Assembly (NCBI RefSeq): GCF_004564075.1
Contig: NZ_CP038257.1
Coordinates: forward strand, 62,001-126,000
Direction: 5' to 3'
DNA length: 64,000 nucleotides
DNA from: Microbacterium sediminis
GTDB lineage: Bacteria; Actinomycetota; Actinomycetes; Actinomycetales; Microbacteriaceae
A program made the translations under genes and the position numbers. Shown here piece by piece: positions 441-60,035 of this stretch. The notes beneath the pieces are model-generated. The model worked only from the letters and a program-made list of their open reading frames with translations. It was not told the origin of the DNA and did no database searches. Within the stretch, counting starts at the first letter, position 1; each line of letters begins with the position of its first letter.

Positions 441-3614
<3,174 letters not shown>

Positions 3615-3834: not shown

Positions 3835-4419
3835 ATGGTGAGCGTGAGCGTGAGCGAAGCGGCCCCCCGAGCCACCGCGGCATCGGGCGCGGGGCGATGG
3901 CTCTCCGGCGCGCTCCTGGCCAGCGTGGCGATCGCCGCGCTGTACCCGCTTCTCGGGCCGGGCACGCACCGGTGGGCGCTCCTGGCCGCCACGGCGATCG
4001 CCGCCGCCGCGATCGCCGTGGTCGACCACCGCACCTTCACGTTGCCCAACCGGTACGTCGGTCCGCTCGCGGCCGCCGGCGCCGTGCAGGTCGTCGCCAC
4101 GGCCCTGTTCACCACCGACGTCTGGGCCGCAGCCTGGCCAGCGATCGCGGCGGCCGTCGTGTTCATCACGTACGCAGTCATGGGCATGGCCGGCTGGTTC
4201 GGATTCGGCGACGCGAAGTTCGCCGCAGCGCTCGCCCTCATCGTCGCCCTCTATGCGGGCCCGCTGGCGATCTACCTGGTCCCGCTCGCGATCCTCACCG
4301 GCGCGGCCCGTCGTGTGATCCGTGGCGCCCGAGCACGCAAGAGCAAGCTCGCCCACGGCCCCGACATCGCTGCCGCAGCCATCGGCATCATCCTCATCAC
4401 GCAGCTGCTCACCTCCTGA
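3835..4419 (+). CDS. Prepilin peptidase (A24 family, short form)
   Basis: The 194-aa protein has about six hydrophobic helices. It carries the two conserved aspartate regions of type IV prepilin/preflagellin peptidases: VVDHRTFTLPNR near residue 62 and GFGDAKFAAAL near 122-132. The family cleaves the leader peptide of type IV or Tad-type pilins at the cytoplasmic membrane face. The N-terminal methylase domain of long PilD proteins is absent, as in Tad-type peptidases. No pilin gene is in the window; it may lie upstream with the PKD-like gene. The ATG is preceded by GAGAAGAG. Confidence 0.8.
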   Translation: MVSVSVSEAAPRATAASGAGRWLSGALLASVAIAALYPLLGPGTHRWALLAATAIAAAAIAVVDHRTFTLPNRYVGPLAAAGAVQVVATALFTTDVWAAAWPAIAAAVVFITYAVMGMAGWFGFGDAKFAAALALIVALYAGPLAIYLVPLAILTGAARRVIRGARARKSKLAHGPDIAAAAIGIILITQLLTS

Positions 4420-4430
4420 GCCCGGCGAAG

Positions 4431-4486
4431 TGTCGACTCGACCCGGTGCCGCCCACCCCTTGTAGGTAAGAGGGGATCCGCCCCTC
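4431..4486 (+). promoter_or_regulatory. 56-bp repeated upstream element, copy A
   Basis: The copy starts with TGTCGAC. Sixteen bases later comes a 33-bp block beginning CACCCCTTGTAGGTAAG and ending CCCCTC. GAGGGG-ATCCG-CCCCTC can form a hairpin, while the preceding CCCCTT can pair with the same GAGGGG, so the two stems exclude each other. The element ends 20 bp before the ATG at 4507. Copies B (4711-4766) and C (19701-19756) have identical length and spacing. Confidence 0.7.
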
Positions 4487-4506
4487 GACGTCAGAGGAGG
4501 ACGGGC

Positions 4507-4680
4507 ATGAGCACCTTCGACACCGCCTGGGAGAAGGCACACGACTACGCCGTCACCGCGGGAGTCGACGAGCCGGACGCGTTCGCCGCGGACTACGCGC
4601 AGATGGTCGACGACCTCGCGAACGAGCCCAGGTACCCAGACCTGCCGCTCCCGGCCCCAGCCGACTTCCTCTGGCCCTAA
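4507..4680 (+). CDS. Small acidic hypothetical protein (57 aa)
   Basis: The ATG at 4507 has a strong AGAGGAGG ribosome-binding site 6 bp upstream. The frame encodes 57 residues beginning MSTFDTAWEKAHDYAV and ending PADFLWP. It is acidic, predicted helical and soluble, with no known domain. Upstream element copy A sits before it and copy B after its stop, so it looks like a separately controlled small gene between the prepilin peptidase and the FtsK-like ATPase. Its function is unknown. Confidence 0.65.
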   Translation: MSTFDTAWEKAHDYAVTAGVDEPDAFAADYAQMVDDLANEPRYPDLPLPAPADFLWP

Positions 4681-4710
4681 CGCAGCCGGCACCGGAGCGG
4701 CCGGCGAGCT

Positions 4711-4766
4711 TGTCGACACCAGCCACGACCACCCACCCCTTGTAGGTAGGAGGGGATCCACCCTCC
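4711..4766 (+). promoter_or_regulatory. 56-bp repeated upstream element, copy B
   Basis: Copy B has TGTCGAC, then CACCCCTTGTAGGTAGGA at the same offset as in copy A, and ends CCCTCC. The stem is GGAGGG-GATCCA-CCCTCC. Its 33-bp 3' half is nearly identical to copy A. Bases that differ next to the stem differ in step in the 3' arm (CCCCTC against CCCTCC), as expected for a selected hairpin. It ends 18 bp before the GTG start at 4785. Confidence 0.7.
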
Positions 4767-4784: not shown

Positions 4785-6017
4785 GTGACCACTGCAACCA
4801 TCGAAGCCGAGGACTTCTTCACCGCCTGGCAGCTCGAGCTCGACGCGCACCTGCTCGTGCTCGCCCAGGCCGGACGCGGCAAAGATCACCTCATCCGACG
4901 CACCACCGACCGCATCATCGACGACCTGGCAGGCTCCGTGCGCATCATCGGCACCGGCCACTACCGACTCACCACAGTCCACCCCAACGCGCTTGTCAGC
5001 ACCGACCCCCACATCGCCCTGCTCGCCATCAACGCAGAGCTCGACGAGATGGCGCGACGCTACGACGCGATCACGGCCGGAGAACCCAAGCCCGCCCCTC
5101 GCCTGGTCATCATCGACGACTTCCAGCAGCTGCTCTACACGCTCAACACCTACGACCGCTGCCAGTTCCTCGACCGCATCGACGACCTGATCTCCCTCGG
5201 ACGCTCGGCAGGGATGCACGTGGTGATCGTCTCCGACCACACCCCCACCATCACCGTTCGCGAGCTGTCCCAGATGGCGATCACCGTGCTCGGCCGCCCG
5301 GACGGTATGGACCCGCTCTACGACCTGCTCAAGACCTTCGGCGTTGAGATCCCCGACACCCTCCCCATCGGCCACGCGACCTTCCACGGCTACAACCGAT
5401 CCGGCGTGACCATCCGGCTCCCAGCCCCGCGCATGGCACGCCTCGCAATCGCCGACCCGCCCTACCTCGGCCGCGCCAACCGCTGGTACGGCACCGGCCG
5501 CGGACACGCATCAGGAACCGGCAAACCCGACCACCACGACCACGCCGCCACCTGGGACCACCCCGCCACCCACCTCCAGCTCCTCGACCGTCTGCAGACG
5601 GACTATGACGGCTGGGCGCTCGCCGCAGCACCAGCCACGCTCGGGCTGTACCTGTCGCGCCTGGACGAGCAGCTGCGAGCTGGCGGTGTCCGCGTCGCGG
5701 TGTGGCATCGCGGAAACGCCGTCCCCAGCGGCTCGCGCATTGCATCGCAATGGGAGCCGGTGATCGTCCGCAGCCCCGCCGGCCGCAGCGCCCATGGCAC
5801 CGACCTGGCCGTCTCGGACGTGCTGACCGCGGGGATCCCGTACAGATCCGGATTCGTCGGACGCAAGCCCGATGCCTGGACACGATGGGTGCTCGAACTG
5901 CTCGGATTCCGATCGGACGACGACTCTCTCGACGACCTGTTCCTCGGGTCAGGATCCGTCACCGCCGCCGCAGACGGCCGACTCGCGTTTCCTGCTCCGA
6001 TGCCCGCTACGGCGTGA
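4785..6017 (+). CDS. FtsK/SpoIIIE-like ATPase with degenerate P-loop
   Basis: The 410-aa protein has a Walker-A-like AQAGRGKDHLI near residue 27-37, in which the usual Ser/Thr after Lys is replaced by Asp. It has a Walker B RLVIIDDFQQLL near residue 106-117. A following LISLGRSAGMHVVIVSDH resembles the FtsK stretch LARxGRAAGIHLxxATQ. The family pumps DNA or drives secretion; with a damaged P-loop this copy may be a regulatory or scaffold paralogue. The GTG start lies 9 bp after GGAGGA, directly behind element copy B. The last ~180 residues have no recognisable domain. The context suggests a role with the neighbouring surface or conjugation genes. Confidence 0.6.
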   Translation: MTTATIEAEDFFTAWQLELDAHLLVLAQAGRGKDHLIRRTTDRIIDDLAGSVRIIGTGHYRLTTVHPNALVSTDPHIALLAINAELDEMARRYDAITAGEPKPAPRLVIIDDFQQLLYTLNTYDRCQFLDRIDDLISLGRSAGMHVVIVSDHTPTITVRELSQMAITVLGRPDGMDPLYDLLKTFGVEIPDTLPIGHATFHGYNRSGVTIRLPAPRMARLAIADPPYLGRANRWYGTGRGHASGTGKPDHHDHAATWDHPATHLQLLDRLQTDYDGWALAAAPATLGLYLSRLDEQLRAGGVRVAVWHRGNAVPSGSRIASQWEPVIVRSPAGRSAHGTDLAVSDVLTAGIPYRSGFVGRKPDAWTRWVLELLGFRSDDDSLDDLFLGSGSVTAAADGRLAFPAPMPATA

Positions 6018-7205: not shown

Positions 7206-7259
7206 TCACTCCTGGGCTGAGCCGCGCGCTGCGCGCCAGTGCTCCGTGACGGGATAACC
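7206..7259 (-). pseudogene. Detached 3' end of abiEii
   Basis: On the minus strand the last codons read GYPVTEHWRAARGSAQE followed by TGA at 7206. They begin inside the 8-bp sequence GGTTATCC that also ends the surviving abiEii coding sequence at 17987-17994. Removing 7260-17994 joins the two parts in frame, so this is the original C-terminus of the AbiEii toxin, cut off by transposon insertion. Confidence 0.85.
7252..7259. repeat. Left 8-bp target-site duplication GGATAACC
   Basis: GGATAACC directly precedes the ISL3 left end at 7260. The identical octamer directly follows the outer right end at 17987-17994. Eight bases is the usual duplication length of ISL3-family elements. Confidence 0.9.
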
Positions 7260-8720
7260 GGCTCTTCGGACATCCGGTGGGGGGGTCATGGGGTGAGTCC
7301 GCCGGCGGTGAGGAGCATGCGGAGGCGGTAGTTCTCGCGGTTGCGATAGCCGCGGGCGAGGCGGCGGTGGAGCTCGATGATCCCGTTGATCGCCTCGGTG
7401 CCGCCGTTGTTCGCGCGGCTCGTGGTGAAGTACGCCAGGAACGCTGAACGCCAGCGGCGGAGGGTGCGGCCGAGGCGGGCGATCTCGGGGATCGGGCAGG
7501 TGTGGAACGTGTCGACCACCCTCTCGGCGATCCGCCGCCCCTCGGTCAGGTCCTTCGCGTGGTAGGCAGAGCGCAGCTGCTGTGCGCACTGCCACGCGAC
7601 GAACACCTCGTCGTGCGCAGGATCGGCCTCGATTGCCGCGGTCAGCCGGATCCGCTGCTTGTCGGTGAGGTTCTCGGCCCCGGCACGGAGGATGGTCTGA
7701 ATCCCGTAGAGCGGGTCGCCCTTCCGACCGCGATGCCCGAGGGTGTCTTGCTGGACGCGGCGGCGGACCTCGTCGACGGCGGCGGTGCCGAGCTTGACGA
7801 CATGGAACGCGTCCAGCACAGCGACCGCGTCTTCGAGCGTGTCATCGATCGCAGTCTTGTAGCCCGCGAACGGGTCCAGCGCCGCCACCTTCACGTTCTT
7901 TCGGAACGCTTCGCCCCGCTCGCTGAGCCAGGACGCGTATGCCTTCCCCGATCTGCCCGGCACGAGGTCGAGCAGCCTGGCCCGCGTCTTCCCGGTGCTG
8001 TCGCGGCTGAGGTCGACCATGCCGGTCAGTTCCTTCGGGCCCCGCTTGCGGTGGTCGACGTGATGCCAGATGTGCTCGTCGACGCCGAGCGTGGTCACGT
8101 TCTCGAACCGGGACTCGTCGGCTGCCAACCGCACCAGTTCAGGCTCAACAGCCCGCCACACCGTCTTCCACGATGTCCCGAGCTGACGACGTAGTCCTTC
8201 GATCGTGGCGTGCTCGCGGCGCAGCTGCCCGATCGCCCAGTCGACGGCTCGCCTTGTGAGCGACCCGCGCCGAGCGACCAGCGAGGGAAGCTGCTCCACG
8301 AACGTCTTCTTGGCACAGCCCACGTCGCCGCATCGCCAGACCCGTTGCCGACAGACGATCCGCACCCGCGTCACGCCCGGCACGTCATGCAACACTCGAC
8401 GGCGGCGCCCTCGACCGATCGCCACGACCCCGCACAACGGGCACCCGGTCGGCGCCGCCGGTGTCGAAACGGTGACGATCAGCAGCCCGTCGCGGCGGTC
8501 AACGTGCTCGACATGGACGCCGTCGAGACCGACCAGCAGATCGCAGCGGTAACACGGATCAGCGGCAGAGCGCGCGTCAGCGCACCCCGAAGTAGGGTGA
8601 AGCACGTCGAGGTCCTCGTGATGGATCAGCAGTTGGCGCTACTGATCCTCGGGGACCTCGACCCCTACCCGCCGACCATCACCCGGCGAGCCTCACCCCC
8701 ACCGCATGTCCGAAGAGCCC
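7260..8720 (-). mobile_element. ISL3-family insertion sequence
   Basis: The IS has terminal inverted repeats GGCTCTTCGGACATCCGGTG at 7260 and its inverted counterpart (CCGCATGTCCGAAGAGCC) ending at about 8719. One transposase gene fills the element. The octamer after its own right end (CCCAATTC) does not match GGATAACC, so this IS did not insert alone here; it moved as the left part of the larger transposon. Confidence 0.85.
7286..8605 (-). CDS. tnpA: ISL3 family transposase
   Basis: The 439-aa protein has an N-terminal zinc-ribbon (CPLCG near residue 54, then CRQRVWRCGDVGC near 85-97) and a helix-turn-helix around 120-150. The DDE domain starts at TTLGVDEHIWH, with ALDPFAGYKTAI and DAFHVVKL, and ends with a Glu in GGTEAINGIIE. 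These are the features of ISL3 transposases (DUF4351-less, zf-ISL3 plus DDE_Tnp_ISL3). The gene appears full length, so the transposon could still be mobile. The GTG start lies about 115 bp inside the IS. Confidence 0.93.
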   Translation of the reverse strand: MLHPTSGCADARSAADPCYRCDLLVGLDGVHVEHVDRRDGLLIVTVSTPAAPTGCPLCGVVAIGRGRRRRVLHDVPGVTRVRIVCRQRVWRCGDVGCAKKTFVEQLPSLVARRGSLTRRAVDWAIGQLRREHATIEGLRRQLGTSWKTVWRAVEPELVRLAADESRFENVTTLGVDEHIWHHVDHRKRGPKELTGMVDLSRDSTGKTRARLLDLVPGRSGKAYASWLSERGEAFRKNVKVAALDPFAGYKTAIDDTLEDAVAVLDAFHVVKLGTAAVDEVRRRVQQDTLGHRGRKGDPLYGIQTILRAGAENLTDKQRIRLTAAIEADPAHDEVFVAWQCAQQLRSAYHAKDLTEGRRIAERVVDTFHTCPIPEIARLGRTLRRWRSAFLAYFTTSRANNGGTEAINGIIELHRRLARGYRNRENYRLRMLLTAGGLTP

Positions 8721-9117: not shown

Positions 9118-9701
9118 AGAATCGTCGACCAGAGTCCCAGAACTGCTCGCCCATCTACCATCCCCTTGCGGGCACTGCGCGGTGAGGGGACGTCAGCGTG
9201 CGACGGTTCGGCCCGGGCGCGATGTCTCCCCTTTCACGTCTGAGTGGCCATCGGTCTGATCGGGCCATGAGCAGGATCAGTTTCGCGCGTCGCCCCCGCC
9301 CTCTGGTTCCGCGCTGCGGGCGTCATCGTCGTGGCAGGCTTCTTCGCGTCGTTGGTTACCGGTGTCTGCTGCCCCGGCGCCCCCGCCAGCGGAACATCGA
9401 CGTGCGGAACGTTCGAGCGCTTGACCGCCGGGATCGACAGATCACGTGGCTCTGGCTCGCACGGACGGTCATCGTAGGCGCCATCGCGGCGCTCGAGGTG
9501 GGCGTCTTCGGTCGAGTCACCCTTGGCCGACTTCCTTGCGGGCATGGCACTGTTCGGGAGCTCGAGCGGACGCAGGGAGGTCATGAAATTGCCTTTCGCG
9601 GATAGCGGAGGCGATGAACGCTGCGTTCACCTATGGTTGGGGTCGTGGTCGCATTGCGCCCATACGATGTGCGGCGAACCCGAAAGGTGATCACCGGCTA
9701 C
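9118..9701. other. Stretch without a convincing gene
   Basis: No frame gives a clean gene. Around 9280-9400 one plus frame reads like a membrane helix (AAGVIVVAGFFASLVTGV) without a start codon. After about 9440 a different plus frame reads WLARTVIVGAIAALEVGVF. Together these look like the debris of a small membrane-protein gene with a frameshift. The last ~70 bases lead into the rpiR start (GAAAGGTGATC before the ATG at 9702). Confidence 0.35.
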
Positions 9702-10624
9702 ATGAACTCGCCCCTCAACGAGCCGCCGCTCGGCGGAACCATCGACCACATCCTCTCGATCCTGCCGTCGCTCGTACCGAGCGCGCAGCGCGTCGCCCGC
9801 ATCTGCGCCGAGCGACCCCACGACGTGGTCGACATGTCGGGCGCCGACCTCGCCGAAGCCGCCAACACGTCGCCGGCCACCGTCAGCCGCACCGCCCAGG
9901 CGCTGGGGCTGCGCAGCTTTCAGCACCTGCGCATGCTGCTCGTGCGTGACCTCGCCGCCGACGCCACCGCCGCGCCCGACGCACCCGCCGGCACCGAGGG
10001 CTTTCTGCGGTGGCTGGCCGAGGGGCGGGTGGGATGCTGCAGACCGCGCTCGCCTCGATCGACCCGGTCGCGTTCGACGCCGCTGCCGACGCCATCGCCC
10101 GCGCGCCGCGCCTGCTGATCTCGGGCACCGGCGCCTCGCACGCCGCCGCCCAGGCGTCGGCCGTCGCGTTCGCCGTCAACGGCCGGCCCTGCGAAGCGCC
10201 CGCTGACGGCGTGGTCGCCCACCTCACCGCCCGCGTGCTCGCCCCCGGTGATGTGTGCCTCATCGTCAGCTCGAGTGGCGCCAACTCGGTGACCCTCGCG
10301 GTTGCGGACGCCGCCGTCGACGCCGGCGCCACCGTGATCGGGGTCACGAGCTTCGCCCGTACCCCGCTCACCACCCGCGCCGACCACCTGCTCGTCGCCG
10401 GTGCGCGCTTCCAGGCGTGGGATCAAGGCATTCTCGGCAGCGGGCTCGTACAGCTGCTCGTGCTCAACGCCCTGCAGATCGCCGTCGCCGACCGCATGAG
10501 CGACGCCGCCGACCGCGCGCGCCTCGCGGTGCGCGAAGAGGTGCTCGACATCGTCGCCGACGACGGCTCCGACGCCGAGGCATCCGACGTGCCAGACGTT
10601 ATCGACCACGGCGATGGGCGTTGA
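9702..10624 (+). pseudogene. RpiR/MurR-type SIS-domain regulator with a frameshift
   Basis: The first frame (from ATG 9702) gives an RpiR winged HTH (SGADLAEAANTSPATVSRTAQALG) and runs to FLRWLAEG near 10026. The SIS sugar-phosphate-binding domain (LLISGTGASHAAAQ, CLIVSSSGANSVT) continues in the -1 frame to 10624. The switch lies in the G-rich stretch 10018-10035, where one missing base would explain it. RpiR proteins control sugar-phosphate uptake and catabolism, which fits a gene just upstream of the importer operon. Either the regulator is lost and the operon deregulated, or this is a base-call error. Confidence 0.75.
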
Positions 10625-17937: not shown

Positions 17938-18999
17938 TCAGGTACATGCCCTCACCCCATGACCCCCACCGAATGTCCGAAGAGCCGGATAACCGGAGCG
18001 CACGTGCGCGCGCACGTGGACCTCCCCCGAAGGGGATCCGCTGCCGCCCGGCTCCGGCGGCGGAGGGTTCTGTGTCCAGCCTGAGCCAGGGACCCAGACC
18101 GTCCCCGGTTGCACGGGCGCGTCGGCGAGCGCGGGATCGATCAGCTGACGCGCGAGAGCCACGGCCTCACCCAGATCGGTGATCCCGCCGGCTGAGGGCG
18201 TGCCGGCCGCGAGCACCCGGTAGGGACCGTCCCAACCGTCCGGGACCGTGAACGTCGTGAACGAGTCGAGCTTTGACAGTGCACGCTTCGCGTCGATGGC
18301 CATCTGCAGCTCGCGCAGGTCGACGTGCTGCGTGCGTGCAATGGTGACGATGTCCACCAGGTCTTTCGCGCGGCTGCTGGGGCGGCCGTTGTAGGTGCTC
18401 ATCGTCGCAGTGACCTTCTCCGCGACCTGATCGGAGATCGGGAACAGCCGGTAGGGGTGCGACGGGACCGGCCGCCCCAGCTGCAGCCGCGTCGACGGCT
18501 CGATCGTCTCGACGCGGCCGACCGGGGGAGGGCCGACGACCACGTCGATGGGGATGTCGGAGATCCTCCGGCCGGTGTTCGCGTCCAGACATGTGAACAC
18601 CAGGCGCCGGGTCGCGACACCCGGCTGGTTCTCTCCTCGCCCGGTCGCACGGGCACGGGTGAGCTGGAACCGCACATGGTCGCCGAGATCACGCGCGGCT
18701 GCCTGCTCGAGCGCCTGCTGCGCGGCATCCAGATCGGCGGCGCCGGTCGAGGCCAGATCCAGGTCTTTCGTCGACCGTGACTTCGGCACCCGGGCGAGCA
18801 TCGCCGTGCCGCCCTTGAGCAGCCACTCGGACTCTTCCCCCTCCGCAAAGACCCGGCTGAGGAAACGATCGTGCTGTGCCTGCACGATCTGCGCATTCAC
18901 ATCCAGCGCGCTCGCGCCGTCACCGGCTGCCTTCGTCGCGGCCGCCTTGATCGCCTGCGCAAGCCCCGTCCAGTCTTTGTAGCCGTCGGGCTCAGGCAT
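17938..18999 (-). CDS. abiEii: AbiEii nucleotidyltransferase toxin, C-terminus replaced by transposon sequence
   Basis: The ATG at 18999 overlaps the abiEi stop by 8 bp. The protein carries the type IV toxin nucleotidyltransferase motifs: LLKGGTAMLAR near residue 55, SRSTKDLDLAS just after, and IPIDVVVGP near 150. AbiEii enzymes inhibit growth by adding nucleotides to tRNA, giving phage exclusion. The transposon entered near the 3' end, so the last native residues GYPVTEHWRAARGSAQE (now at 7206-7259) are replaced by about 16 residues read from the transposon tip before a stop at 17938. The catalytic part is intact. The product may still work, but this needs a test. Confidence 0.85.
   Translation of the reverse strand: MPEPDGYKDWTGLAQAIKAAATKAAGDGASALDVNAQIVQAQHDRFLSRVFAEGEESEWLLKGGTAMLARVPKSRSTKDLDLASTGAADLDAAQQALEQAAARDLGDHVRFQLTRARATGRGENQPGVATRRLVFTCLDANTGRRISDIPIDVVVGPPPVGRVETIEPSTRLQLGRPVPSHPYRLFPISDQVAEKVTATMSTYNGRPSSRAKDLVDIVTIARTQHVDLRELQMAIDAKRALSKLDSFTTFTVPDGWDGPYRVLAAGTPSAGGITDLGEAVALARQLIDPALADAPVQPGTVWVPGSGWTQNPPPPEPGGSGSPSGEVHVRAHVRSGYPALRTFGGGHGVRACT
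17987..17994. repeat. Right 8-bp target-site duplication GGATAACC
   Basis: This octamer directly follows the outer right inverted repeat and equals 7252-7259. Read on the minus strand it supplies the Gly-Tyr-Pro codons of abiEii. Confidence 0.9.
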
Positions 19000-19700: not shown

Positions 19701-19756
19701 TGTCGACTTCGAGCCTCTGGGGCCACCCCTTAGCAGTGAGGGGGTTCCAAACCCTC
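19701..19756 (+). promoter_or_regulatory. 56-bp repeated upstream element, copy C
   Basis: TGTCGAC, a 16-base spacer and CACCCCTTAGCAGTGAGG ending CCCTC occur at exactly the offsets seen in copies A and B. The possible stem is GAGGG with CCCTC, competing with CCCC/GGGG. It lies 47 bp before the ATG at 19804, with the AATATAACC palindrome between. Confidence 0.65.
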
Positions 19757-19763
19757 GGGAACG

Positions 19764-19785
19764 GGTTATATTCGGGAATATAACC
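19764..19785. promoter_or_regulatory. Palindromic operator GGTTATATTC-GG-GAATATAACC
   Basis: Two perfect 10-base arms are separated by GG and end 18 bp before the ATG at 19804. Half-sites GAATATAACC and TAATATAACC recur at 23020-23029 and 23400-23409, each 19-21 bp before a start codon. TATATT within the arm can also serve as a -10 box. Confidence 0.6.
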
Positions 19786-19803: not shown

Positions 19804-20688
19804 ATGCGGACCCACACCTGCCCGCCGGACCACAAGCACGGGCTGACCTCCACCTGCTACGTCGTCCACCTCTGCGGGTGCCGCGCCTGCATGGACGGCA
19901 ACGCGCGCCGCCGCCGCGACCGCTACCGTCTCCTGGCCTACGGGCGATACCAGGACGCGCACCAGCCCATCGAGCCGATCCGGCAGCACCTGCAGGCACT
20001 GGTCGACACCGGGATGATCCCCGAACGGATCGCCATCAGCGCCGGCGTCGGCGGCGCCACGGTCCGTCGCCTGCTCAACAGCGAGACGGCACGGTTCGTC
20101 ACCGGCGCCACCGCCCGCAAACTCCTCGCAGTCACCCCCGACAGCAGCACTCTCGCCGCGCAGGGCCGAGTCAACGGCCGCGGCACCCGGCGGCGCCTCC
20201 AGGCTCTGGCCGCGATCGGATGGAACCACCACGAGATCGCACGCCGACTCGGCTACCCGCGCTGGAAGGTCAACAAGGCACTCGAAAGCGCCTACGTGGA
20301 CATCCGCGTCCACGACGACATCGCCGCGCTCTACGACGAGCTCTGGGACCAGCAGCCCCCCACCCACACCCGAGCGCAGCGGGTCGGCCGCTCCTACGCG
20401 CTCACGGTCGCACGCCGGCACGGCTGGCTGCCGCCGCTGGCCTGGGACGACATCGACACCGACCCGGCACCGCCCACAGTCGAGCAGGAACCCCTGGTCG
20501 ACGAGATCGCGATCGAGCTCGCTCTCGCCGGCCAGAACGTCCGCCTCACCCGAGACGAGCGCCTCGAAGCCACCCGACGCGGGACCGAACGCGGACTCAG
20601 CCTCACCCAGCTCAGCGACCTGCTCGGCGTCGACGTCCGCACCATCGACCGCGACCGTGACGACCTCGGACTCCGGCAGGCCGCCTGA
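19804..20688 (+). CDS. Cys-rich N-terminal, multi-HTH DNA-binding protein
   Basis: The 294-aa protein starts with a Cys/His cluster (HTCPPDHKHG, then HLCGCRAC) like the HGT-GCRC-type small proteins of actinophages. Candidate helix-turn-helix units follow: PERIAISAGVGGATVRRLL near 78, HHEIARRLGYPRWKVNKAL near 144 and LTQLSDLLGVDVRTIDRD near 265. GAGGAGGAGAAG precedes the ATG. It opens a run of overlapping genes to 22459 and is a likely regulator of the element. The exact family is not recognised. Confidence 0.65.
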   Translation: MRTHTCPPDHKHGLTSTCYVVHLCGCRACMDGNARRRRDRYRLLAYGRYQDAHQPIEPIRQHLQALVDTGMIPERIAISAGVGGATVRRLLNSETARFVTGATARKLLAVTPDSSTLAAQGRVNGRGTRRRLQALAAIGWNHHEIARRLGYPRWKVNKALESAYVDIRVHDDIAALYDELWDQQPPTHTRAQRVGRSYALTVARRHGWLPPLAWDDIDTDPAPPTVEQEPLVDEIAIELALAGQNVRLTRDERLEATRRGTERGLSLTQLSDLLGVDVRTIDRDRDDLGLRQAA

Positions 20689-28540: not shown

Positions 28541-28646
28541 TAGACGCTATGGGGTGTTGAGCCTGGGGCCCCCGCCCGCGTAGACCGTGGGTTGCGGGCC
28601 GGTTGTTACCCGGCTTGCCGAGCCACATACGTGAGGGAGGCCCCAG

Positions 28647-29729
28647 TTGATATCTGAGCGTACGAGTGTCGGGCTGGATGTGCACGCGCGGAGCGTTGTC
28701 GCGGCCGCGATCGATGAGAGAACCGGGGAGCTCGTGCAGCGGCGCATGGGCTCCAGCACCGAGGAGATCGTCGCGTGGGTGACGGGCCTGCATGGCCCGG
28801 TCGCGGCGACGTACGAGGCCGGCCCGACAGGGTTCGGACTGGCTCGCGCGTTGACGGCCGCGGGAGTGCGATGCGTGGTCGCTGCCCCGTCGAAGCTGCA
28901 ACGACCGGTCGGAGACCGGGTGAAAACCGACGCGCGTGACGCGGTGCACCTGGCACGCCTCCTGCGCCTCGGGGAGATCGTCGAGGTGGTCGTCCCGAGT
29001 GTCGAATCCGAGGCCGCCAGGGATCTGGTGCGCGCCCGTGAGGATGCCCGCGGTGATCTGATGTCCGCCCGTCACCGGGTCAGCAAGCTGTTGCTGCGAC
29101 AGGGTATCCAGTACTCGGGCGGGAAGGCGTGGACGGTCGCGCACGACACGTGGCTGCGCCAGCAGCGGTTCGAGCTGACCGGGCTGCAGGCCGCATTCGA
29201 TGCTGCCTATGACGCGATGGTCCAGGCCGTCGACCGACGCGACCGGCTCGACACGGCGATCAAGGAGATGGCCGCTGACAGCGAGTTCACGGCGGTCGTG
29301 GACCGGCTCTGCTGCCTGAGGGGCGTCTCGACGCTGACCGGGTTCGCTCTCGCCGTCGAGGTCGGCGACTGGTCGCGCCTGGACGGGCACCGCATCGGCG
29401 CCTACGTCGGTCTGACGCCGTCGGAGTCCTCGTCCGGGGCGTCGCGGGCGTTGGGCGGGATCACCAAGACCGGCAACGGCCACGCCCGCCGGCTGCTGAT
29501 CGAAGCCGCCTGGCACCACCGTCCCGCCTACCGGCCGTCGTCGCCGATCATGCGCGCCCGCTGGGACCGGGCCAGCGCCGCCGCGCGAGCCCGAGGACAC
29601 GCAGGCAACCAGCGCCTTCACCACCGCTGGCAGACGTTCCAGGCCCGCGGGAAGCGCACCGTCGTCGCCAACGCCGCGATCGCCCGCGAACTGGCCGGCT
29701 GGTGCTGGTCCCTGGCCGTCATGACCTGA
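28647..29729 (+). CDS. IS110 family transposase, copy 1
   Basis: The 360-aa protein starts at TTG after GGGAGG and begins MISERTSVGLDVHARSVVAA. It has the RuvC-like DEDD start (GLDVHA), the TDARDAVHLARLL motif near 95 and the C-terminal transposase_20 part with the serine-containing GVSTLTGFALAVEVGDW and the GLTPSESSSG stretch. IS110 recombinases are guided by a structured non-coding RNA from an element end. Copy 2 at 31618-32700 differs at only a few residues. Confidence 0.93.
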   Translation: MISERTSVGLDVHARSVVAAAIDERTGELVQRRMGSSTEEIVAWVTGLHGPVAATYEAGPTGFGLARALTAAGVRCVVAAPSKLQRPVGDRVKTDARDAVHLARLLRLGEIVEVVVPSVESEAARDLVRAREDARGDLMSARHRVSKLLLRQGIQYSGGKAWTVAHDTWLRQQRFELTGLQAAFDAAYDAMVQAVDRRDRLDTAIKEMAADSEFTAVVDRLCCLRGVSTLTGFALAVEVGDWSRLDGHRIGAYVGLTPSESSSGASRALGGITKTGNGHARRLLIEAAWHHRPAYRPSSPIMRARWDRASAAARARGHAGNQRLHHRWQTFQARGKRTVVANAAIARELAGWCWSLAVMT

Positions 29730-29990
29730 CAGCACCTTCGAGTTTCCGGTCGTCGATGGTGGTGACGGCAGCGTCCGGGCGACTCGCGACACGCCCTATG
29801 AGCAACCCGCCCAGCGGGCCACGCTCGATCTCTAGACTCGCGTGACCGCCCCGCCGAACAAGCCGTCATGCGGTAACCAACCCGCGGATATCAGAGTGAC
29901 AACGCGTCGAACATGACACGCGCGTCACCACCCGGGACGACCGGAACGAGCGGACGCCGTCGCCGACGGGCACGGCGTCCGCTCACCCCT
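29730..29990 (+). ncRNA. Candidate IS110 bridge-RNA region in the 3' non-coding end
   Basis: The ~290-bp 3' end has no ORF. It holds two possible hairpins: GAGC-AACCCGCCCAGCGGGCC-ACGCTC at 29800-29826, and a 13-bp perfect stem (29948-29960 with 29972-29984). In copy 2 the first hairpin keeps its CCCG/CGGG stem while the loop changes from CCCAG to CAGGT. IS110-family elements express a guide RNA from a non-coding end; placing it here is inference. Confidence 0.35.
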
Positions 29991-30068
29991 GCCACTTGAC
30001 AACACCCCACCCCATATCAGGGCGTGTTGATCAAGAGGTTCCGCTCCTCGGTGGGTGAGTCTTGAACG

Positions 30069-31328: not shown

Positions 31329-32806
31329 TGATATGGGGTGGGGTCTTGTCAAGTGCAGGGGTGAGCGGACGCCGTGCCCGTCGGCGACGGCGTCCGCTCG
31401 TTCCGGTCGTCCCGGGTGGTGACGCGCGTGTCATGTTCGACGCGTTGTCACTCTGATATCCGCGGGTTGGTTACCGCATGACGGCTTGTTCGGCGGGGCG
31501 GTCACGCGAGTCTAGAGATCGAGCGTGACCCGACCTGCGGGTTGCTCATAGGGCGCGTCGCGAGTCGCCCGGACGCTGCCGTCACCACCATCGACGACCG
31601 GAAACTCGAAGGTGCTGTCAGGTCATGACGGCCAGGGACCAGCACCAGCCGGCCAGTTCGCGGGCGATCGCGGCGTTGGCGACGACGGTGCGCTTCCCGC
31701 GGGCCTGGAACGTCTGCCAGCGGTGGTGAAGGCGCTGGTTTCCCGCGTGTCCTCGAGCGCGCGCGGCGGCGCTGGCCCGGTCCCAGCGGGCGCGCATGAT
31801 CGGCGACGACGGCCGGTAGGCGGGACGGTGGTGCCAGGCCGCTTCGATCAGCAGCCGGCGGGCGTGGCCGTTGCCGGTCTTGGTGATCCCGCCCAACGCC
31901 CGCGACGCCCCGGACGAGGACTCCGACGGCGTCAGACCGACGTAGGCGCCGATGCGGTGCCCGTCCAGGCGCGACCAGTCGCCGACCTCGACGGCGAGAG
32001 CGAACCCGGTCAGCGTCGAGACGCCCCTCAGGCAGCAGAGCCGGTCCACGACCGCCGTGAACTCGCTGTCAGCGGCCATCTCCTTGATCGCCGTGTCGAG
32101 CCGGTCGCGTCGGTCGACGGCCTGGACCATCGCGTCATAGGCAGCATCGAATGCGGCCTGCAACCCGGTCAGCTCGAACCGCTGCTGGCGCAGCCACGTG
32201 TCGTGCGCGACGGTCCATGCCTTCCCGCCCGCGTACTGGATGCCCTGCCGCAGCAGCAGCTTGCTCACTCGGTGACGCGCCGACATCAGATCCCCGCGGG
32301 CATCTTCGCGGGCACGCACCAGGTCCCGCGCCGCTTCGGCCTGAACGCTCGGAACGGTCACCTCCACGATCTCGCCCAGCCGCAGCAGCCGGGCCAGATG
32401 GACCGCGTCGCGCATGTCCGTTTTGACCCTGTCCCCGACGGGGCGCTGCAGTTTCGAGGGAGCTGCGACCACCGCCCGCACTCCCGCGGCTGTCAACGCA
32501 CGGGCCAGTCCGAACCCGGTCGGGCCGGCTTCGTAGGTCGCCGCGACCGGGCCGGGCAGACTCGTCACCCACGCGACGATCTCCTCCGTCCCCGCACCCA
32601 TGCGCCGCTGGATGAGCTCACCGCTGCGCTCATCGATCGCGGCCGCGACTGTGCTGCGCGCGTGCACATCCAGCCCAACGCTCGTACGCTCAGAAATCAA
32701 CTGGGGCCTCCCTCACATATGTGGCTCGGCAAGCCCGCGACACCGGGCTCGCAACCCACGGTCTATGCGAGCGGGGGCCCCAGGCTCAACACCCCATAGC
32801 GTCTAG
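31329..32806 (-). mobile_element. IS110-family element, copy 2 (inverted)
   Basis: This is an inverted, nearly identical copy of 28540-30019, with outer end CTAG at 32803-32806. With the IS5 terminal repeats the two arms form an inverted repeat of about 1.49 kb (28540-30035 and 31313-32806) around 1.28 kb. Small differences include one base less in the CCTGCACTTG stretch and the variable hairpin loop at 31537-31552. Confidence 0.8.
31618..32700 (-). CDS. IS110 family transposase, copy 2
   Basis: The 360-aa protein starts at TTG (MISERTSVGLDVHARSTVAA) and is identical in motif layout to copy 1. Changes are few (for example GAGTEEI for GSSTEEI and TDMRDAVHLARLL for TDARDAVHLARLL). Both copies look intact, so either could mobilise the elements. 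Confidence 0.93.
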   Translation of the reverse strand: MISERTSVGLDVHARSTVAAAIDERSGELIQRRMGAGTEEIVAWVTSLPGPVAATYEAGPTGFGLARALTAAGVRAVVAAPSKLQRPVGDRVKTDMRDAVHLARLLRLGEIVEVTVPSVQAEAARDLVRAREDARGDLMSARHRVSKLLLRQGIQYAGGKAWTVAHDTWLRQQRFELTGLQAAFDAAYDAMVQAVDRRDRLDTAIKEMAADSEFTAVVDRLCCLRGVSTLTGFALAVEVGDWSRLDGHRIGAYVGLTPSESSSGASRALGGITKTGNGHARRLLIEAAWHHRPAYRPSSPIMRARWDRASAAARARGHAGNQRLHHRWQTFQARGKRTVVANAAIARELAGWCWSLAVMT

Positions 32807-36229: not shown

Positions 36230-37464
36230 CGGGCGGCCGCCTTCGCCGGAGCCGTGCTCGAGGGCTCGAGGAGGGCGCGCAGCCGATGTATCAGCTCGTC
36301 CGCCTTCGCTCGCGAGGCGACCGAGCGGCGGGCGTCGACGAGGGCACGCGGCCAGTTCACGATGACGGCACCTTCGGCCTGCCCTTGGCTCTCGCCGTAC
36401 ACGACGGCGAAGCGGTCCTGCGCAGGGTCGCCCACCATCGTCCAGTGATCAGATCCGGTATGCCCGACGATCTGGATCTTCCAGTCGTACTGGTCGCTCC
36501 ACACATACTCCGTCGGGTCGTAGCTGCGCAGGTCATCCGGGTGAGCGATGTTATGCGCGACAATCAGCGCCTGATCCGTCGCGCTCGTCCAGTGCTCCAA
36601 CCGGATCGGGTCGGGATGCCGTCGGTTCATGAATCGTGCCACGTCGCCGATCGCATACACGTGGGAGACGCCGACGGCGGCAAGCGTGCCTTCGCAGACG
36701 ACACCGTTATCCAGCGCGAGGCCCGACGACTCGAGCCACTCCGTGTTGACGACCGCTCCGATACCGAGCAGGACAGCGTCGACATCCAGCGTCGCGCCAT
36801 CGGTGAGCGTGACCTGGACGCGGTCACCCGTGCGCTCGACGTTCTCGACGGAGACGCCGAAGCGTAGCTCAGCACCCTCCCTGCGGTACTTCTCCGCGAA
36901 GATACCGCCCACTTCCATATTCATCGCCCGGCCCATCGGAGCACCGATCGGTTCGATGATGGTGACCTTGACACCGGCCGCAAGCGCTGTGGCGGCCGCC
37001 TCGGCGCCGATGAATCCGGCGCCGACCACCGCGAGGTGGCGGCCCGGAACGAGCTCCTTGCGCAGCTCGTCGGCATCGGCGCGGGTACGCAGCACGTGGA
37101 CGCCGGGAGTGGAAGCCCACGGGGTTCGGCGAGCTCGGGCACCCGTCGCGATGACGAGGATGTCGTAGGTCAGCTCGCTGCCGTCGGCGAGCGTCAGCGT
37201 CTTGCCGGCAGGATCCAGCTCGGTCGCGGCGACGCCGAAACGGGTCTCGACCCGCAGGCCTTCGAGCGCTTCCGCCGTCGTCAGCGCGATCTCCGGGTCG
37301 GATGCGGCGCCGCTGAGGTACTTCTTCGACAGCGGGGGACGGTCGTAGAGGGGATGGCTCTCCTGGTCCACCAGCGTGATCGCGCCGGTGAACCCCTCCG
37401 AACGAAGATTCTGTACGAGCTTGACTCCGGCGACGGAAGCACCGACGACGACGACGTGAGACAT
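36226..37464 (-). CDS. Ferredoxin reductase of cluster I dioxygenase
   Basis: The 412-aa FAD/NAD(P)H reductase has GxGxxG-type dinucleotide motifs at the N-terminus (VVVVGASVAGVKL) and near 145 (LAVVGAGFIGAEAAATAL). It also has the family's DQESHPLYDRPPLSKKYL and VYAIGDVARF (FAD). It belongs to the BphA4/CamA/rubredoxin-reductase group and passes electrons from NADH to the [3Fe-4S] ferredoxin encoded 10 bp upstream. The C-terminal reductase domain (SDQYDWKIQIVGH, VNWPRALVDARR) is complete. Confidence 0.92.
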   Translation of the reverse strand: MSHVVVVGASVAGVKLVQNLRSEGFTGAITLVDQESHPLYDRPPLSKKYLSGAASDPEIALTTAEALEGLRVETRFGVAATELDPAGKTLTLADGSELTYDILVIATGARARRTPWASTPGVHVLRTRADADELRKELVPGRHLAVVGAGFIGAEAAATALAAGVKVTIIEPIGAPMGRAMNMEVGGIFAEKYRREGAELRFGVSVENVERTGDRVQVTLTDGATLDVDAVLLGIGAVVNTEWLESSGLALDNGVVCEGTLAAVGVSHVYAIGDVARFMNRRHPDPIRLEHWTSATDQALIVAHNIAHPDDLRSYDPTEYVWSDQYDWKIQIVGHTGSDHWTMVGDPAQDRFAVVYGESQGQAEGAVIVNWPRALVDARRSVASRAKADELIHRLRALLEPSSTAPAKAAAR

Positions 37465-37474
37465 GCGAATCGGC

Positions 37475-37675
37475 TCAACCCTCGACAGACAGCGCCGAGA
37501 CCGGGCAGCTTCGGGCGGCTTCCTCGACGCGAGTGCGCTCCGCGTCCGGCACCTCGAGCTGCAAGAGCACGACCTTGCCGTCGTCGTCGATGTCGAAGTA
37601 GTCTCCCGCGGCCACGACGCAGTTCGCGTAGCCCTGGCAGAGGGAGAGGTCAGCCTTCACCGTGGCCATGGTCAT
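37475..37675 (-). CDS. [3Fe-4S] ferredoxin of cluster I
   Basis: The 66-aa protein has CQGYANC and a later SCPVSAL, giving three cluster cysteines as in actinobacterial 3Fe-4S ferredoxins. It shuttles electrons from the reductase to the Rieske oxygenase. Starts at 37675 or 37669 (MATVKADLSL) are both possible. The gene overlaps the 3' end of the small conserved gene by 20-26 bp. Confidence 0.9.
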   Translation of the reverse strand: MTMATVKADLSLCQGYANCVVAAGDYFDIDDDGKVVLLQLEVPDAERTRVEEAARSCPVSALSVEG

Positions 37676-37994
37676 TCCTCGTTGATGATGGGTCGGGGTC
37701 GGGGAACATGGGCGCGTACGGCGACCCGATCATCGCTGAGAACGTCTGGACGGTCTGCCAGGTGAGCGCCTCCAGCTCGAGCGGGTCGAGTGCGATCCAT
37801 TGTCCGGATTTCGGAGAGTCGATGAGCAGACGCGTCCCGTTGCGGGTCTCGACCCGGCTCACCGTGATCTCAGAGAACTCGTTGGCGATCGTGAGCGGCT
37901 CGCCGACGGTGCGCGCGACCAAACGTGCGCGCTCCTCGGCGGCGGCGATCGCGGCGGCCCGATCGACGTCGGCGCCTTCCCACTCCAGGGTCAC
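37650..37994 (-). CDS. Conserved small dioxygenase-cluster protein 1 (unknown function)
   Basis: The 114-aa soluble protein begins MTLEWEGADVDRAAAIAAAE. It shares ANEFSEI, SRVETRNG, SPKSGQW, LDPLELEALTWQT and FSAMI with the proteins at 44943-45269 and 60036-60356, in all three clusters at the same position between beta subunit and ferredoxin. The ATGA overlap with the beta gene implies coupled translation. It has no Cys and no membrane helix. It may be an accessory subunit or assembly factor. No known domain is recognised. Confidence 0.75.
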   Translation of the reverse strand: MTLEWEGADVDRAAAIAAAEERARLVARTVGEPLTIANEFSEITVSRVETRNGTRLLIDSPKSGQWIALDPLELEALTWQTVQTFSAMIGSPYAPMFPDPDPSSTRNDHGHGEG

Positions 37995-38581
37995 AGGAAG
38001 ATCGCCAGGTTCTGGGTGCGCAGCACCGACTCGTCGACGAGGATGACGCGGCGCGCGAGCTTGTACTCGCCTCCGACGTCACGGAACACATCCTCCCGGT
38101 GGGCGGAGATGATCGACGGCTCGTTCACGTCTCCTCGGCTGCGGAACAGCAGCATCGCGGAGTCGGCGAGCACCTCGCCGGGCACGTCGGTCTCGAACAC
38201 CCGCACGTTGGTCACGAAGTGACGCAGCCGGGACGGAGGGTCCTCGGTCCAGGCATGCTCGGTAAGGAACCGTGCGACGCGCCGGCTGAGCGAGTACTTG
38301 TTCTCGTCCCAGTGCGCCATCCCGGGGGACGTGCTGAAGGGCGTGCCGAGTGCGGTGGTCACGCGGACGGGCATGACGTAGTGGATGTCTTCCGTCAGCA
38401 TGTCCAGCCAGCTCTCATACCGCTGCTGGTCGAGAGTGTAGGCCTCTTCGACGAGCCAGCGATGGATCGTGGCGTGCAGCTCGCTCGTGAAGGGCAGGGA
38501 CGAGCCCACCCGGTCGGCGAGGGTTGACGACTTGCGAAGCCGGGAGACTTCGGAAACTGCCTTGCCGGTCTCCTCGATCAT
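37991..38581 (-). CDS. Ring-hydroxylating dioxygenase beta subunit, cluster I
   Basis: The 196-aa protein shows the NTF2-like beta-subunit pattern (RWLVEEAYTLDQQRYESWLD, HYVMPVRVTT, MAHWDENKYSL, SRLRHFVTNVRVFE, LFRSRGD, VDESVLRTQNLAIFL). The subunit is structural and packs against the alpha subunit in an alpha3beta3 hexamer. The start overlaps the alpha stop by 4 bp. Confidence 0.93.
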   Translation of the reverse strand: MIEETGKAVSEVSRLRKSSTLADRVGSSLPFTSELHATIHRWLVEEAYTLDQQRYESWLDMLTEDIHYVMPVRVTTALGTPFSTSPGMAHWDENKYSLSRRVARFLTEHAWTEDPPSRLRHFVTNVRVFETDVPGEVLADSAMLLFRSRGDVNEPSIISAHREDVFRDVGGEYKLARRVILVDESVLRTQNLAIFL

Positions 38582-40020
38582 CGGACCACCTTCTGACCAT
38601 TGTTCGTGATGCCCGCAGGTCGGGGCTCGACATCCAGTGGCGGCTCGCCGCCGATCGACAGGGCACGGAAGTCGACGCCCTCGTACTCCGACTCCAGGTA
38701 GTCCGCCCAGCGGTGGAGCAGATGGCGCTGGTTGTACTCGCCGTAGCCCACGTGCGCGACGCCGGGGCCGGCGAACTGGTCGGGGCCGAGCGGCTCGACG
38801 ACCGGCGATCCATCCTTGAGGATGCCCATGCGGCTGTTCAGGAGCAGGCGCCGCGCCATTGATCCCTTCGCCGTGTTCGTGAGCGAGACCCAGTTCTCCA
38901 CGTCGTCCTGCTCGAACATGCCCGTCGACCCGAAGCACATCAGGTAGGCCTTGTACGACAGTGCCTTGAACTCCTCCGGAGCCTCAGCGTCGACCGCGAA
39001 CCAGGAGTACACCTCGGTCTCGTCCTCGCTGATCGGAAGCCACGTCCGGATGGAGATGAACGGGAGCACGTCCTCGTCCGAACCCTCCTCGACCTTGGGC
39101 CAGTTGTGGACGAAGGACATGTTCGGGAAGAGCGAGGCCGCGGAGATCATGAACCCGTCGCGGCCGATGACATCGAGCTGCTCCTGAGACCAGGTCGCCT
39201 TCATCCGCTCGACCATCTCGTCCGGGTAGCCGACGTACCGCAGCCGCTCCTCGAGCGTGCCCGGCGGGAGCTTGTAGGTCGTGCCGCCTCCGTTGCCGGC
39301 CCAGTATGTGTTGCCGTCCTTGCGCTTCTCGGCCTTCGGCTCGCGGAACAGCCCGATCTCGACGACCGAGGTGTGCGTCTGGGGCGTGTGGTACATGTCG
39401 CCGGCGAAGTTCTCGGCGCCGATCTTCCAGTTCGCCTTGACGCGCCACCGCTGCGGGCCCCGGAGCTCGATGCCGCTGGGGCTCTGCCGGGTGTAGTAGT
39501 CGAGATAGAACTTGAAGTCGCCGATGTAGTCCTCGAGGCTCGGCGCATCCGGGTCCATGCTGATGAAGATCAGGCCGTTGTACATACCGAGGTTCGGCGC
39601 CGGCAGGAGCCGTGCGCCCTTTCGGCTGAACCCGGCCTCGCCGCCGTAGGCCTCCTCGTGGAAGGGGAGTCCGACGATGCGTCCGTCGTTGCGGTAGGAC
39701 CACCCGTGGTACGGGCAGCGGAAGTGCGAGGCGTTCCCCATCTCGGCCCGGCAGACCTGCATGCCGCGATGCAGGCACATGTTGAAGTGGGCGCGGATCT
39801 CACCCTTCTCGTCGCGGACGATGATGAACGAGTCGTCGAGTATTCGCCGGACGACGTAGTCGCCGGCCTGAGGAATCTCGGACTCGTGGCCCACGAACAG
39901 CCAGGCGCGGCTGAAAAGGTTCTTTCGTTCGCGCGCGAAGATCTCCGCGTCGTTGTAGATGTACGCCGGTATCATTCCGCGACGGATCTCGTCGTAGATC
40001 GTCATGCTGGAAGTGCTCAT
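38578..40020 (-). CDS. Ring-hydroxylating dioxygenase alpha subunit, cluster I
   Basis: From ATG 40020 the 480-aa protein has the Rieske ligands Cys82, His84, Cys102 and His105 (CLHRG, CPYHGWSY). The mononuclear iron site has bridging Asp208 with His211 and His216 (GDMYHTPQTH) and a later Asp in FEQDDVENW. It inserts both atoms of O2 into an aromatic ring as a cis-diol. The three alpha subunits here are close paralogues. A TACACT box at 40037-40042 (minus strand) lies 16 bp before the start. The substrate is unknown; an aromatic acid is likely from the context of cluster III. Confidence 0.94.
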   Translation of the reverse strand: MSTSSMTIYDEIRRGMIPAYIYNDAEIFARERKNLFSRAWLFVGHESEIPQAGDYVVRRILDDSFIIVRDEKGEIRAHFNMCLHRGMQVCRAEMGNASHFRCPYHGWSYRNDGRIVGLPFHEEAYGGEAGFSRKGARLLPAPNLGMYNGLIFISMDPDAPSLEDYIGDFKFYLDYYTRQSPSGIELRGPQRWRVKANWKIGAENFAGDMYHTPQTHTSVVEIGLFREPKAEKRKDGNTYWAGNGGGTTYKLPPGTLEERLRYVGYPDEMVERMKATWSQEQLDVIGRDGFMISAASLFPNMSFVHNWPKVEEGSDEDVLPFISIRTWLPISEDETEVYSWFAVDAEAPEEFKALSYKAYLMCFGSTGMFEQDDVENWVSLTNTAKGSMARRLLLNSRMGILKDGSPVVEPLGPDQFAGPGVAHVGYGEYNQRHLLHRWADYLESEYEGVDFRALSIGGEPPLDVEPRPAGITNNGQKVVR

Positions 40021-42107: not shown

Positions 42108-42325
42108 CTATCCGGACGCCGATTCGAGCAGCCGGCCCAGTCGTACACGAACGTCGGAAAGCGACGATCCCGCTGCGATGGACCGGCGGACTTCGACGAG
42201 AGCGCGGGGCCAATTCAGTACCACTGCCCCGTCGAATGACAGACCATTCTGAGAGTACAGAGACGCGATCCGGTCGGGTGTTCGAGGGTCCGTCACCATC
42301 TCGGGGTGGCCGCGTCCGTTTGAGT
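42108..42325 (-). pseudogene. C-terminal part of cluster II ferredoxin reductase
   Basis: The minus frame EMVTDPRTPDRIASLYSQNG then GAVVLNWPRALVEVRRS matches the last ~70 residues of the reductases at 36226 and 58601. It is separated from the N-terminal part (43707-44745) by the IS256 element. Confidence 0.75.
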
Positions 42326-43706: not shown

Positions 43707-44745
43707 ACCCCGCGGGACTCCAGGTCTCGGGGTTGACTGCCGTCGTGCGACCGACGATGTGCAGCTTCCAGTTGAACTGGTCACTCCAGACATACTCGAC
43801 AGGCAGATATGAGCGTCGGTCGTCGGGATGAGCGATGTTGTGCGCGACACAGCGCGCCTGGTCGACCGCATTCGTCCAGTGCTCAAGACGGGTGAGATCG
43901 CCGCGAACCGGATGCCGCCACCGCGCAACATCGCCGATCGCATGGATTTCCGGGGCGCCGAGTGCCGTGAGGAATTCGTCGCAGACGAGACCGTCGTCGA
44001 TCTCGAGCCCTGAGTCCTCGAGCCATTCGACGTTCGGCACTGCCCCGATGCCGATGACGACGACATCACCGTGGAGCTCGGAACCGTCATCCAGGAGCAC
44101 GCGGAAGTCTCCCTTCGCACCGTCGATCTGCGCGACCGTCCGTCCGAGAACCGCATGTACGCCATGCCGGGAGTGCTTCTGCGAGAAGAGGGCGCCAATC
44201 TCGTCACCGAGCCGGCGTGACATCAGGTCGCGTGTCGCCGAGACCAGGGTGACATCGACTCCGAGCCCAAGAGCGGTCGCGGCGACCTCGGCGCCGATGA
44301 AGCCCGCTCCGATGACGATGATCCTGCGATCGGGAACTAGCTCGGCGCGCAGCCGGTCTGCGTCGTCGAGTGTCCGCAGCACATGGATTCCCTCGCCTTC
44401 ACCCCACGGCGACGGCCGCGCGCGGACGCCGGTCGCCACCACGAGGTCATCGAAGCCGACCCGCCGTCCATTCGCCAGCCGGAGCTCCGACAACGCACGG
44501 TCCAGACCTACCGCCGGCACACCGAGACGAAGGTCGATGTTAAGCTCGAGCGCCTCCGCCGCCGTGAGGAGCGTGACCTCGGCTGCACCTGCACCGACGA
44601 GGTATCCCTTCGACAGCGGCGGCTTGTCGTAGGGCAGCACGGGCTCGGAGCCGATGAGCACAACGTCTCCGCGATACCCCTCTGCCCGAAGCGCCTGCGC
44701 GGCCCGTACCCCCGCGATCGACGCACCGACAATCGCTGTCGTCAT
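43678..44745 (-). pseudogene. N-terminal part of cluster II ferredoxin reductase
   Basis: The frame encodes the FAD- and NAD-binding domains (AIVGASIAGVRAAQAL, IIVIGAGFIGAEVAATALG, IHAIGDVARW) up to LHIVGRTTAVNPETW. It then runs into the IS256 end and stops at 43678. The missing ~65 C-terminal residues are at 42108-42325. FAD binding might persist, but the C-terminal domain is lost, so it is probably inactive. Confidence 0.8.
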
Positions 44746-44939: not shown

Positions 44940-44942
44940 GTG

Positions 44943-60024: not shown

Positions 60025-60035
60025 CTCATTACCTC

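Follow-up and report, generated by a model that had tools for sequence, protein, structure and literature searches.

Candidate promoters of a plasmid-encoded sigma-like protein in Microbacterium sediminis and related plasmids

The 64,000-nucleotide (nt) stretch analyzed here, called the window below, covers positions 62001–126000 of contig NZ_CP038257.1 of Microbacterium sediminis. This contig, hereafter C2, is 127,669 bp long and belongs to a genome of two contigs totaling 2,919,864 bp. It carries conjugation, Tad-pilus, ParA, and LysM genes, resembling known Microbacteriaceae plasmids, and was treated as a plasmid. The initial annotation of the window reported a 56-bp element repeated three times, each time shortly before a start codon, and envisaged an RNA or protein-controlled switch. 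What, then, is this element, and what reads it? We conclude that its copies are very probably promoters of a divergent extracytoplasmic function (ECF)-like sigma factor encoded by the plasmid itself, because of their fixed spacing, their position before operons, and the presence of a linked sigma-like gene.

A bipartite element upstream of plasmid operons

All three reported copies were recovered on the forward strand, each consisting of TGTCGAC, a 16-nt spacer, and CACCCCTT. Putative promoter A spans 4431..4475, with the −35-like box TGTCGAC at 4431–4437 and the −10-like box CACCCCTT at 4454–4461, followed by GTAGGTAAGAGGGG (51.6 bits). Putative promoter B spans 4711..4755 (TGTCGAC at 4711–4717, CACCCCTT at 4734–4741, then GTAGGTAGGAGGGG; 50.0 bits) and putative promoter C 19701..19745 (TGTCGAC at 19701–19707, CACCCCTT at 19724–19731, then AGCAGTGAGGGGGT; 44.1 bits). 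The distance to the start codon was also correctly given, as the 56-bp elements stop 20, 18, and 47 nt short of the starts at 4507, 4785, and 19804, respectively. Throughout the genome, TGTCGAC-N16-CACCCCTT is matched exactly at these three sites alone, and the reversed control pattern is absent.

The count of three holds within the window but not for the replicon. With a looser bipartite pattern, searched on both strands of all of C2, four further copies were found outside the window, with TGTC at C2 positions 31544 and 54120 on the forward strand and 43085 and 51298 on the reverse strand. Similarly, the 56-bp unit is present in the window copies, but the conserved unit is shorter: the seven copies share the core TGTCGnC-N15-CnnCCCCT, where TGTCG and CCCCT occur in all seven and the 15 separating bases are mostly unrelated. 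A weight matrix trained on the same seven copies that it scores gives them 41.7–52.5 bits, the next C2 site reaching 12.0 and the best site in ten shuffled versions of C2 13.0. An open reading frame (ORF) starts 64–139 nt past TGTC at all seven copies. The proposal of a non-chance element preceding several plasmid operons is borne out.

The exact pattern is present in a single genome out of 299, that of M. sediminis itself. Allowing up to two mismatches, a family scan of 398 genomes gave matches in 51, the five places in the M. sediminis genome being all on C2. The other matches listed each carry two mismatches, and many resemble a single recurring sequence, TCGTCGAC..GGCACCTTGTAGG, which is probably coding; the reversed control also matched several genomes. 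In a virus collection, 16 stretches contained the exact pattern, none with an element-like continuation when inspected by eye, and three other patterns gave no match. A short-query blastn search against plasmids returned four records with partial matches only.

Variants of the bipartite element precede conjugation, FtsK, and Tad-pilus operons on related plasmids, with TGTC at positions 1–4 and CC at 26–27. Counting the T of TGTC as 1, a cytosine occupies position 26 in 33 and position 27 in 36 of 37 promoters from 13 plasmids. The Microbacterium paraoxydans plasmid NZ_CP064874.1 harbors a single C2-type copy, located where it is about 99% identical to the window, and 13 copies of TGTCCGCGAA-N13-GGCCTATAC; with a matrix likewise trained on its own scored copies, these reach 43.3–60.8 bits (next site 9.6, shuffle maximum 15.5). 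A word-pair search making no assumption on sequence revealed five copies of TGTCCGCGAA..GGCCTATATGA on No7A and five of TGTCCG..CACCTACTC on pC1c. It missed the elements of pC1b, No7B, and pYJNG, which were found by targeted patterns or by inspection upstream of operons; it detected no element on pAL1 and one weak, dissimilar candidate on pLMA7. Other box pairs on related plasmids are TGTCCGAT..CACCTATG and TGTCCCGG..CACC. Glutamicibacter pGnB68 carries TGTCCAA..GTGACCTTGA (GGTCCAA in one copy), six times ahead of an annotated gene and once with no such gene. For Xylanimonas pXCEL01, the word search gave seven to eight contexts of [GT]GTCAC..ACCTTCC, five of which are listed as followed by a start codon. 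On Rhodococcus pBD2, TGTCA-N17-AACCT is one base shorter; its three copies in 30 kb are statistically unremarkable, and one precedes the conjugation operon. An exact scan for the M. paraoxydans type in a collection of species genomes returned 65 stretches, several with multiple copies, 36 being titled Microbacterium.

A linked sigma-like gene and plasmid-specific boxes

A shared-gene comparison led to a gene common to C2 and all six compared plasmids. On C2 it lies outside the window, at C2:51470–52192, divergent to the adjoining conjugation operon, and encodes a 240-amino-acid protein lacking annotation. Sigma70_r2 was found at six places in the genome, all chromosomal, and nowhere on C2, which first suggested a plasmid devoid of sigma factor. 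An AlphaFold model of the protein has a pLDDT of 83.8. Among the 50 structure matches listed, 48 are titled sigma factors or RNA polymerase complexes, the aligned chain of the latter being sigma according to our reading of the chain names; the two others bear integrative-model titles and are not assignable. Residues 41–137 of the model superpose on a region 1.2–2 fragment of RpoS (5h6x; 2.5 Å over 89 residues) and residues 174–238 on region 4 of SigD (3vfz; 2.3 Å over 62 residues). Sigma70_r4_2 of Pfam is matched by 30 of 39 family members, including the C2 protein, with E values up to 0.05 (best 1.2e-6); the C2 protein itself scores under the cut-off (18.5 vs. 25.7 bits), and Pfam region 2 is listed for none of the 39. 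NCBIfam sigma70-ECF (TIGR02937) covers its residues 80–235, also under the cut-off. Of the 33 plasmid records in which a relative occurs, 24 label it "hypothetical protein." The Rhodococcus pBD2 homolog, likewise divergent to its conjugation operon, carries the annotation of a sigma-70 family sigma factor.

The element accompanies this gene well beyond C2. A profile search of 295 Microbacterium genomes detected it in 17 genomes, at 22 places. We took 19 of these loci, up to 20 kb each and including the already compared No7A, No7B, and pYJNG, leaving aside the M. sediminis locus, G645 (situated at a contig edge), and, for a gene that is split in G571, its second piece. At 16 of the 19 loci, the 500 bp preceding the sigma gene contain TGTC-N21-CC on the strand opposite to it, against 3.07 in shuffled sequences and 0–8 for the 12 other spacings tried (15–27 except 21). 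The 16 positive loci represent 11 distinct sequences at the 90% level. The three negative ones are G602, which has C2-type promoters elsewhere, and the distant homologs G599 and G511C (26% and 28% identical to C2). Within 150 nt of operon starts, exactly one TGTC-N21-CC was found in 29 of 34 cases, these starts having themselves been picked from the promoter list.

The split homolog of G571 (locus L177 on G571:C1, around 9700–10500) extends over two overlapping frames, at 37185–37730 and 37715–37921 of G571:C1, and is probably broken. The same genome also holds a second, intact C2-type homolog.

To judge from the sequences compared, box type follows the plasmid and not the operon. When the 37 promoters (13 plasmids) are compared over the −35 extension (nt 5–10), identity is 0.83 for two operons sharing a plasmid (n = 35), 0.43 for one operon on two plasmids (n = 168), and 0.38 for all other pairs (n = 463); most promoters were found by likeness to the conjugation promoter of their own plasmid, which inflates the first value. 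Right-box identities for the same three classes are 0.70, 0.48, and 0.45. None of 2,000 label permutations within operons reached the observed box values, compared with 19 of 2,000 for the spacer control (0.36, 0.33, and 0.30).

The −35 box also tends to change along with the sequence of the predicted region 4 recognition helix, judging from a visual comparison of 17 plasmid-borne sigma sequences for which a promoter is available. RKR[VA]DRIR accompanies TGTC[GC]AC (C2, G370, G629a, and G661), VDCVN[QA]R..RAR accompanies TGTCGGTT (G571a and G602), and NRR[VL][CH]RIRTKL accompanies TGTCCGCGAA or TGTCCGGGAA (M. paraoxydans and No7A types). The agreement is not one to one: G629a and G661 have both TGTCCAC and TGTCGAC, and the extension varies on pC1c. 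The sigma of pC1b shares 54% identity with its C2 counterpart, and this plasmid was predicted beforehand to have the most C2-like boxes. The prediction was borne out clearly at its conjugation and FtsK operons (CACCCCCTTAC and CACCCCTTTAC) and less so at its SAF operon (CACCTCTCATAGG).

The regulon-wide motif, its fixed register, the sigma-like fold, and the tendency of box type and recognition helix to agree are computed results. We infer that the C2 sigma-like protein binds the boxes and that transcripts begin shortly downstream of them. The −35-like box would consist of TGTC with an extension particular to each plasmid (here TTGTCGAC) and the −10-like box of CxCC (here CACCCCTT), both at a fixed spacing and read by RNA polymerase carrying the product of C2:51470–52192. 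As positions and sequence suggest, this sigma factor would control the conjugation, FtsK-like coupling-protein, SAF/Tad-pilus, and accessory operons as a single regulon, and homologous sigma factors with diverged boxes would give each related plasmid lineage its own code. More tentatively, and with somewhat less than even confidence, we propose a promoter-code incompatibility among actinobacterial conjugative-type plasmids. A fast-evolving private sigma, whose region 4 and boxes codiverge, might insulate lineages transcriptionally from co-resident relatives, and genes moved between plasmids might be orphaned until their promoter is replaced. The M. paraoxydans plasmid has a sigma that is expected to recognize a different box, and the copy-C operon would be such an orphan there.

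Operator, RNA element, or inactive repeat

The element could instead be an operator at which a plasmid-encoded repressor or activator contacts two half-sites, the operons being transcribed with the housekeeping sigma factor of the host. A dimeric or tandem regulator would also suit a fixed bipartite spacing, the window encodes at least one other helix-turn-helix (HTH) protein, and TATA, as expected of a host −10 box, is part of the right box in two plasmid types. However, the right box varies by plasmid type in the register of the left box, and C2 has no TA there. The boxes lie 57–103 nt ahead of the 34 start codons examined, a possible placing for −35 and −10 boxes, and the linked conserved candidate has a modeled sigma region 2–4 fold, unlike a classical repressor. 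We regard an operator as unlikely.

Still less probable is an RNA element, whether attenuator, thermometer, or leader switch, based on the two mutually exclusive hairpins that had been noticed. Both can indeed form in all three window copies (6/6 and 5/5 pairs). Among 20 C2-type promoters (seven on C2 and 13 on five related plasmids), complete stems exceed the expectation from shuffled tails, with 5 complete first stems (0.79 expected) and 8 complete second stems (3.01 expected), four of the latter on C2. However, the five complete first stems are all on C2: two C2 copies (54120 forward and 43085 reverse) are without the GAGGGG arm that this hairpin requires yet keep the bipartite core, and none of the 13 related promoters has the stem. 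Conserved, covarying alternative stems were not found in this set; since the stems are complete in few of the 20 promoters, they are not a conserved feature, and a hairpin switch was rejected as the conserved principle. The initial annotation had named the lack of covarying stems in further copies as its own refuting test, and the outcome goes against the hairpins. The reported covariation of arm bases between copies A and B corresponds by eye to a one-base shift of the pairing register in two copies, but not to compensatory changes at fixed positions. Folding energies of the three window leaders relative to shuffles are ordinary in two and slightly favorable in one (z = −2.1, −0.8, and −0.6), and no Rfam family reaches its gathering score within the window. 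Finally, hairpins would leave both the TGTC box and its exact distance unaccounted for. The suggestion of a protein-controlled element fares better: it stands in the broad sense that the promoters are linked to a sigma-like gene, and the RNA-switch versions do not.

The hairpin excess on C2 nevertheless looks real. In five of the seven C2 copies (A, B, C, 31544 forward, and 51298 reverse), the expected transcription start lies within an inverted repeat, CCCCTT..AAGGGG/GAGGGG, which is missing from the 13 related C2-type promoters. Two of the three pBD2 copies (L187, 13900 and 23931) show, by eye, a CTCT..AGAG inverted repeat across the corresponding place. The C2 repeat is possibly an overlapping operator or a 5′ mRNA stem.

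That the copies are inactive repeats spread by transposition or recombination seems the least credible of the three alternatives, with hardly any probability left to it. Copy C does lie within a segment about 99% identical to another plasmid. Against this, the spacer between the boxes is largely unrelated among copies, the copies precede ORF starts on both strands, and the same operons carry different box types on different plasmids. Promoters of a plasmid-encoded sigma factor remain our preferred explanation.

Neighboring genes and known plasmid sigma factors

The genes behind the three window copies are diverse. Promoter A precedes a 57-amino-acid ORF (4507..4680, forward strand, like all the genes located here) weakly similar to small ORFs on three related plasmids, and promoter B a 410-amino-acid ORF (4785..6017) without Pfam match at E 0.01. 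Promoter C precedes a gene for a 294-amino-acid HTH protein (19804..20688; Pfam HTH_23); the M. paraoxydans plasmid carries a 98.6% identical gene behind the same promoter. A palindrome with 10-bp arms, GGTTATATTC-GG-GAATATAACC, lies between promoter C and its gene (19764–19785), is present in the M. paraoxydans copy too, and is possibly an operator. Upstream of promoter A are the prepilin peptidase gene (Peptidase_A24; 3835..4419) of the plasmid Tad-pilus cluster and a 1,057-amino-acid LysM protein gene (441..3614), which served as plasmid-family marker for finding relatives. In our reading, the C-terminus of the LysM protein is winged-helix/BTAD-like and SARP-like in look, and BTAD is named in the annotation of some of its homologs. 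We considered this protein as the regulator; it is superfluous to the account, and a role as upstream input is possible.

Several other features of the window were recorded. From about 17900 to at least 24000, including an AbiEi/AbiEii pair, the 294-amino-acid HTH gene, and an HNH endonuclease gene, the window is about 99% identical to part of NZ_CP064874.1, a recent exchange between plasmids of different sigma types. A 32-bp inverted repeat, 91% complementary (7252–7283 and 17963–17994), flanks about 10.7 kb including a ugpC-like ABC gene and might represent the ends of a mobile cassette. A 1,381-nt inverted repeat, 93% complementary (28612–29992 and 31355–32735), probably corresponds to two insertion sequence copies. 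The LysM gene contains a six-base repeat array encoding Glu-Pro repeats (2735–2811), and a 3- to 5-kb stretch occurs in three diverged copies (36300–39934, 42150–47143, and 58650–62338) with blocks 65–88% identical.

If correct, the promoter interpretation would assign a regulator to the conjugation and Tad-pilus operons of a plasmid group with linear and circular members, including those of Microbacterium, Curtobacterium, Glutamicibacter, Xylanimonas, and, more distantly, Rhodococcus; no such regulator is described in the literature searched. It would account for a gene whose product plasmid records mostly leave as hypothetical. It would also offer a natural series of sigma/promoter pairs for studying the evolution of sigma specificity and for use as orthogonal components in actinobacterial genetics. 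These pairs would also serve to ask how plasmids sharing a cell escape cross-talk: Curtobacterium sp. C1 and Microbacterium sp. No. 7 each have two plasmids with two different sigma types.

The statement that no described motif matches the element is upheld, in that neither element nor sigma family was found described in the CC-licensed PMC literature searched. Likewise, a search naming pBD2 returned nothing on its element or sigma. Many ECF factors recognize GGAAC/GTC-type boxes. The C2 protein resembles group 4 (ECF) members of the sigma-70 family such as CnrH, RpoE, SigD, and SigL in the region 2/region 4 architecture of its model and in a weak region 4 sequence similarity, but its region 2 is not recognized by Pfam and its putative boxes are TGTC/CxCC. 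The pBD2 sigma-70 family protein of Rhodococcus erythropolis (NC_005073) is 26.8% identical over 78% and occupies the same divergent position beside the conjugation operon, but its spacing is one base shorter and its boxes differ. Passages of a review on Gram-positive conjugation (PMC6540685) use the term "sigma factor" twice, once in connection with phrI of ICEBs1 and once within the title of a reference. The closest known precedent is SigN (ZpdN) of Bacillus subtilis pBS32, a plasmid-encoded sigma factor with a consensus promoter before a set of operons of its own plasmid (PMC6751061). pBS32 is a prophage-like Bacillus plasmid under LexA control, linked to cell death and with a different promoter. 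By contrast, the plasmids considered here are actinobacterial, with conjugation and Tad functions, a divergent ECF-like protein without detectable Pfam region 2, and many plasmid-specific promoter variants. A plasmid sigma factor with its regulon is thus of a known kind, whereas the protein family, its link to conjugation and Tad pili, and the plasmid-by-plasmid promoter code appear to be new.
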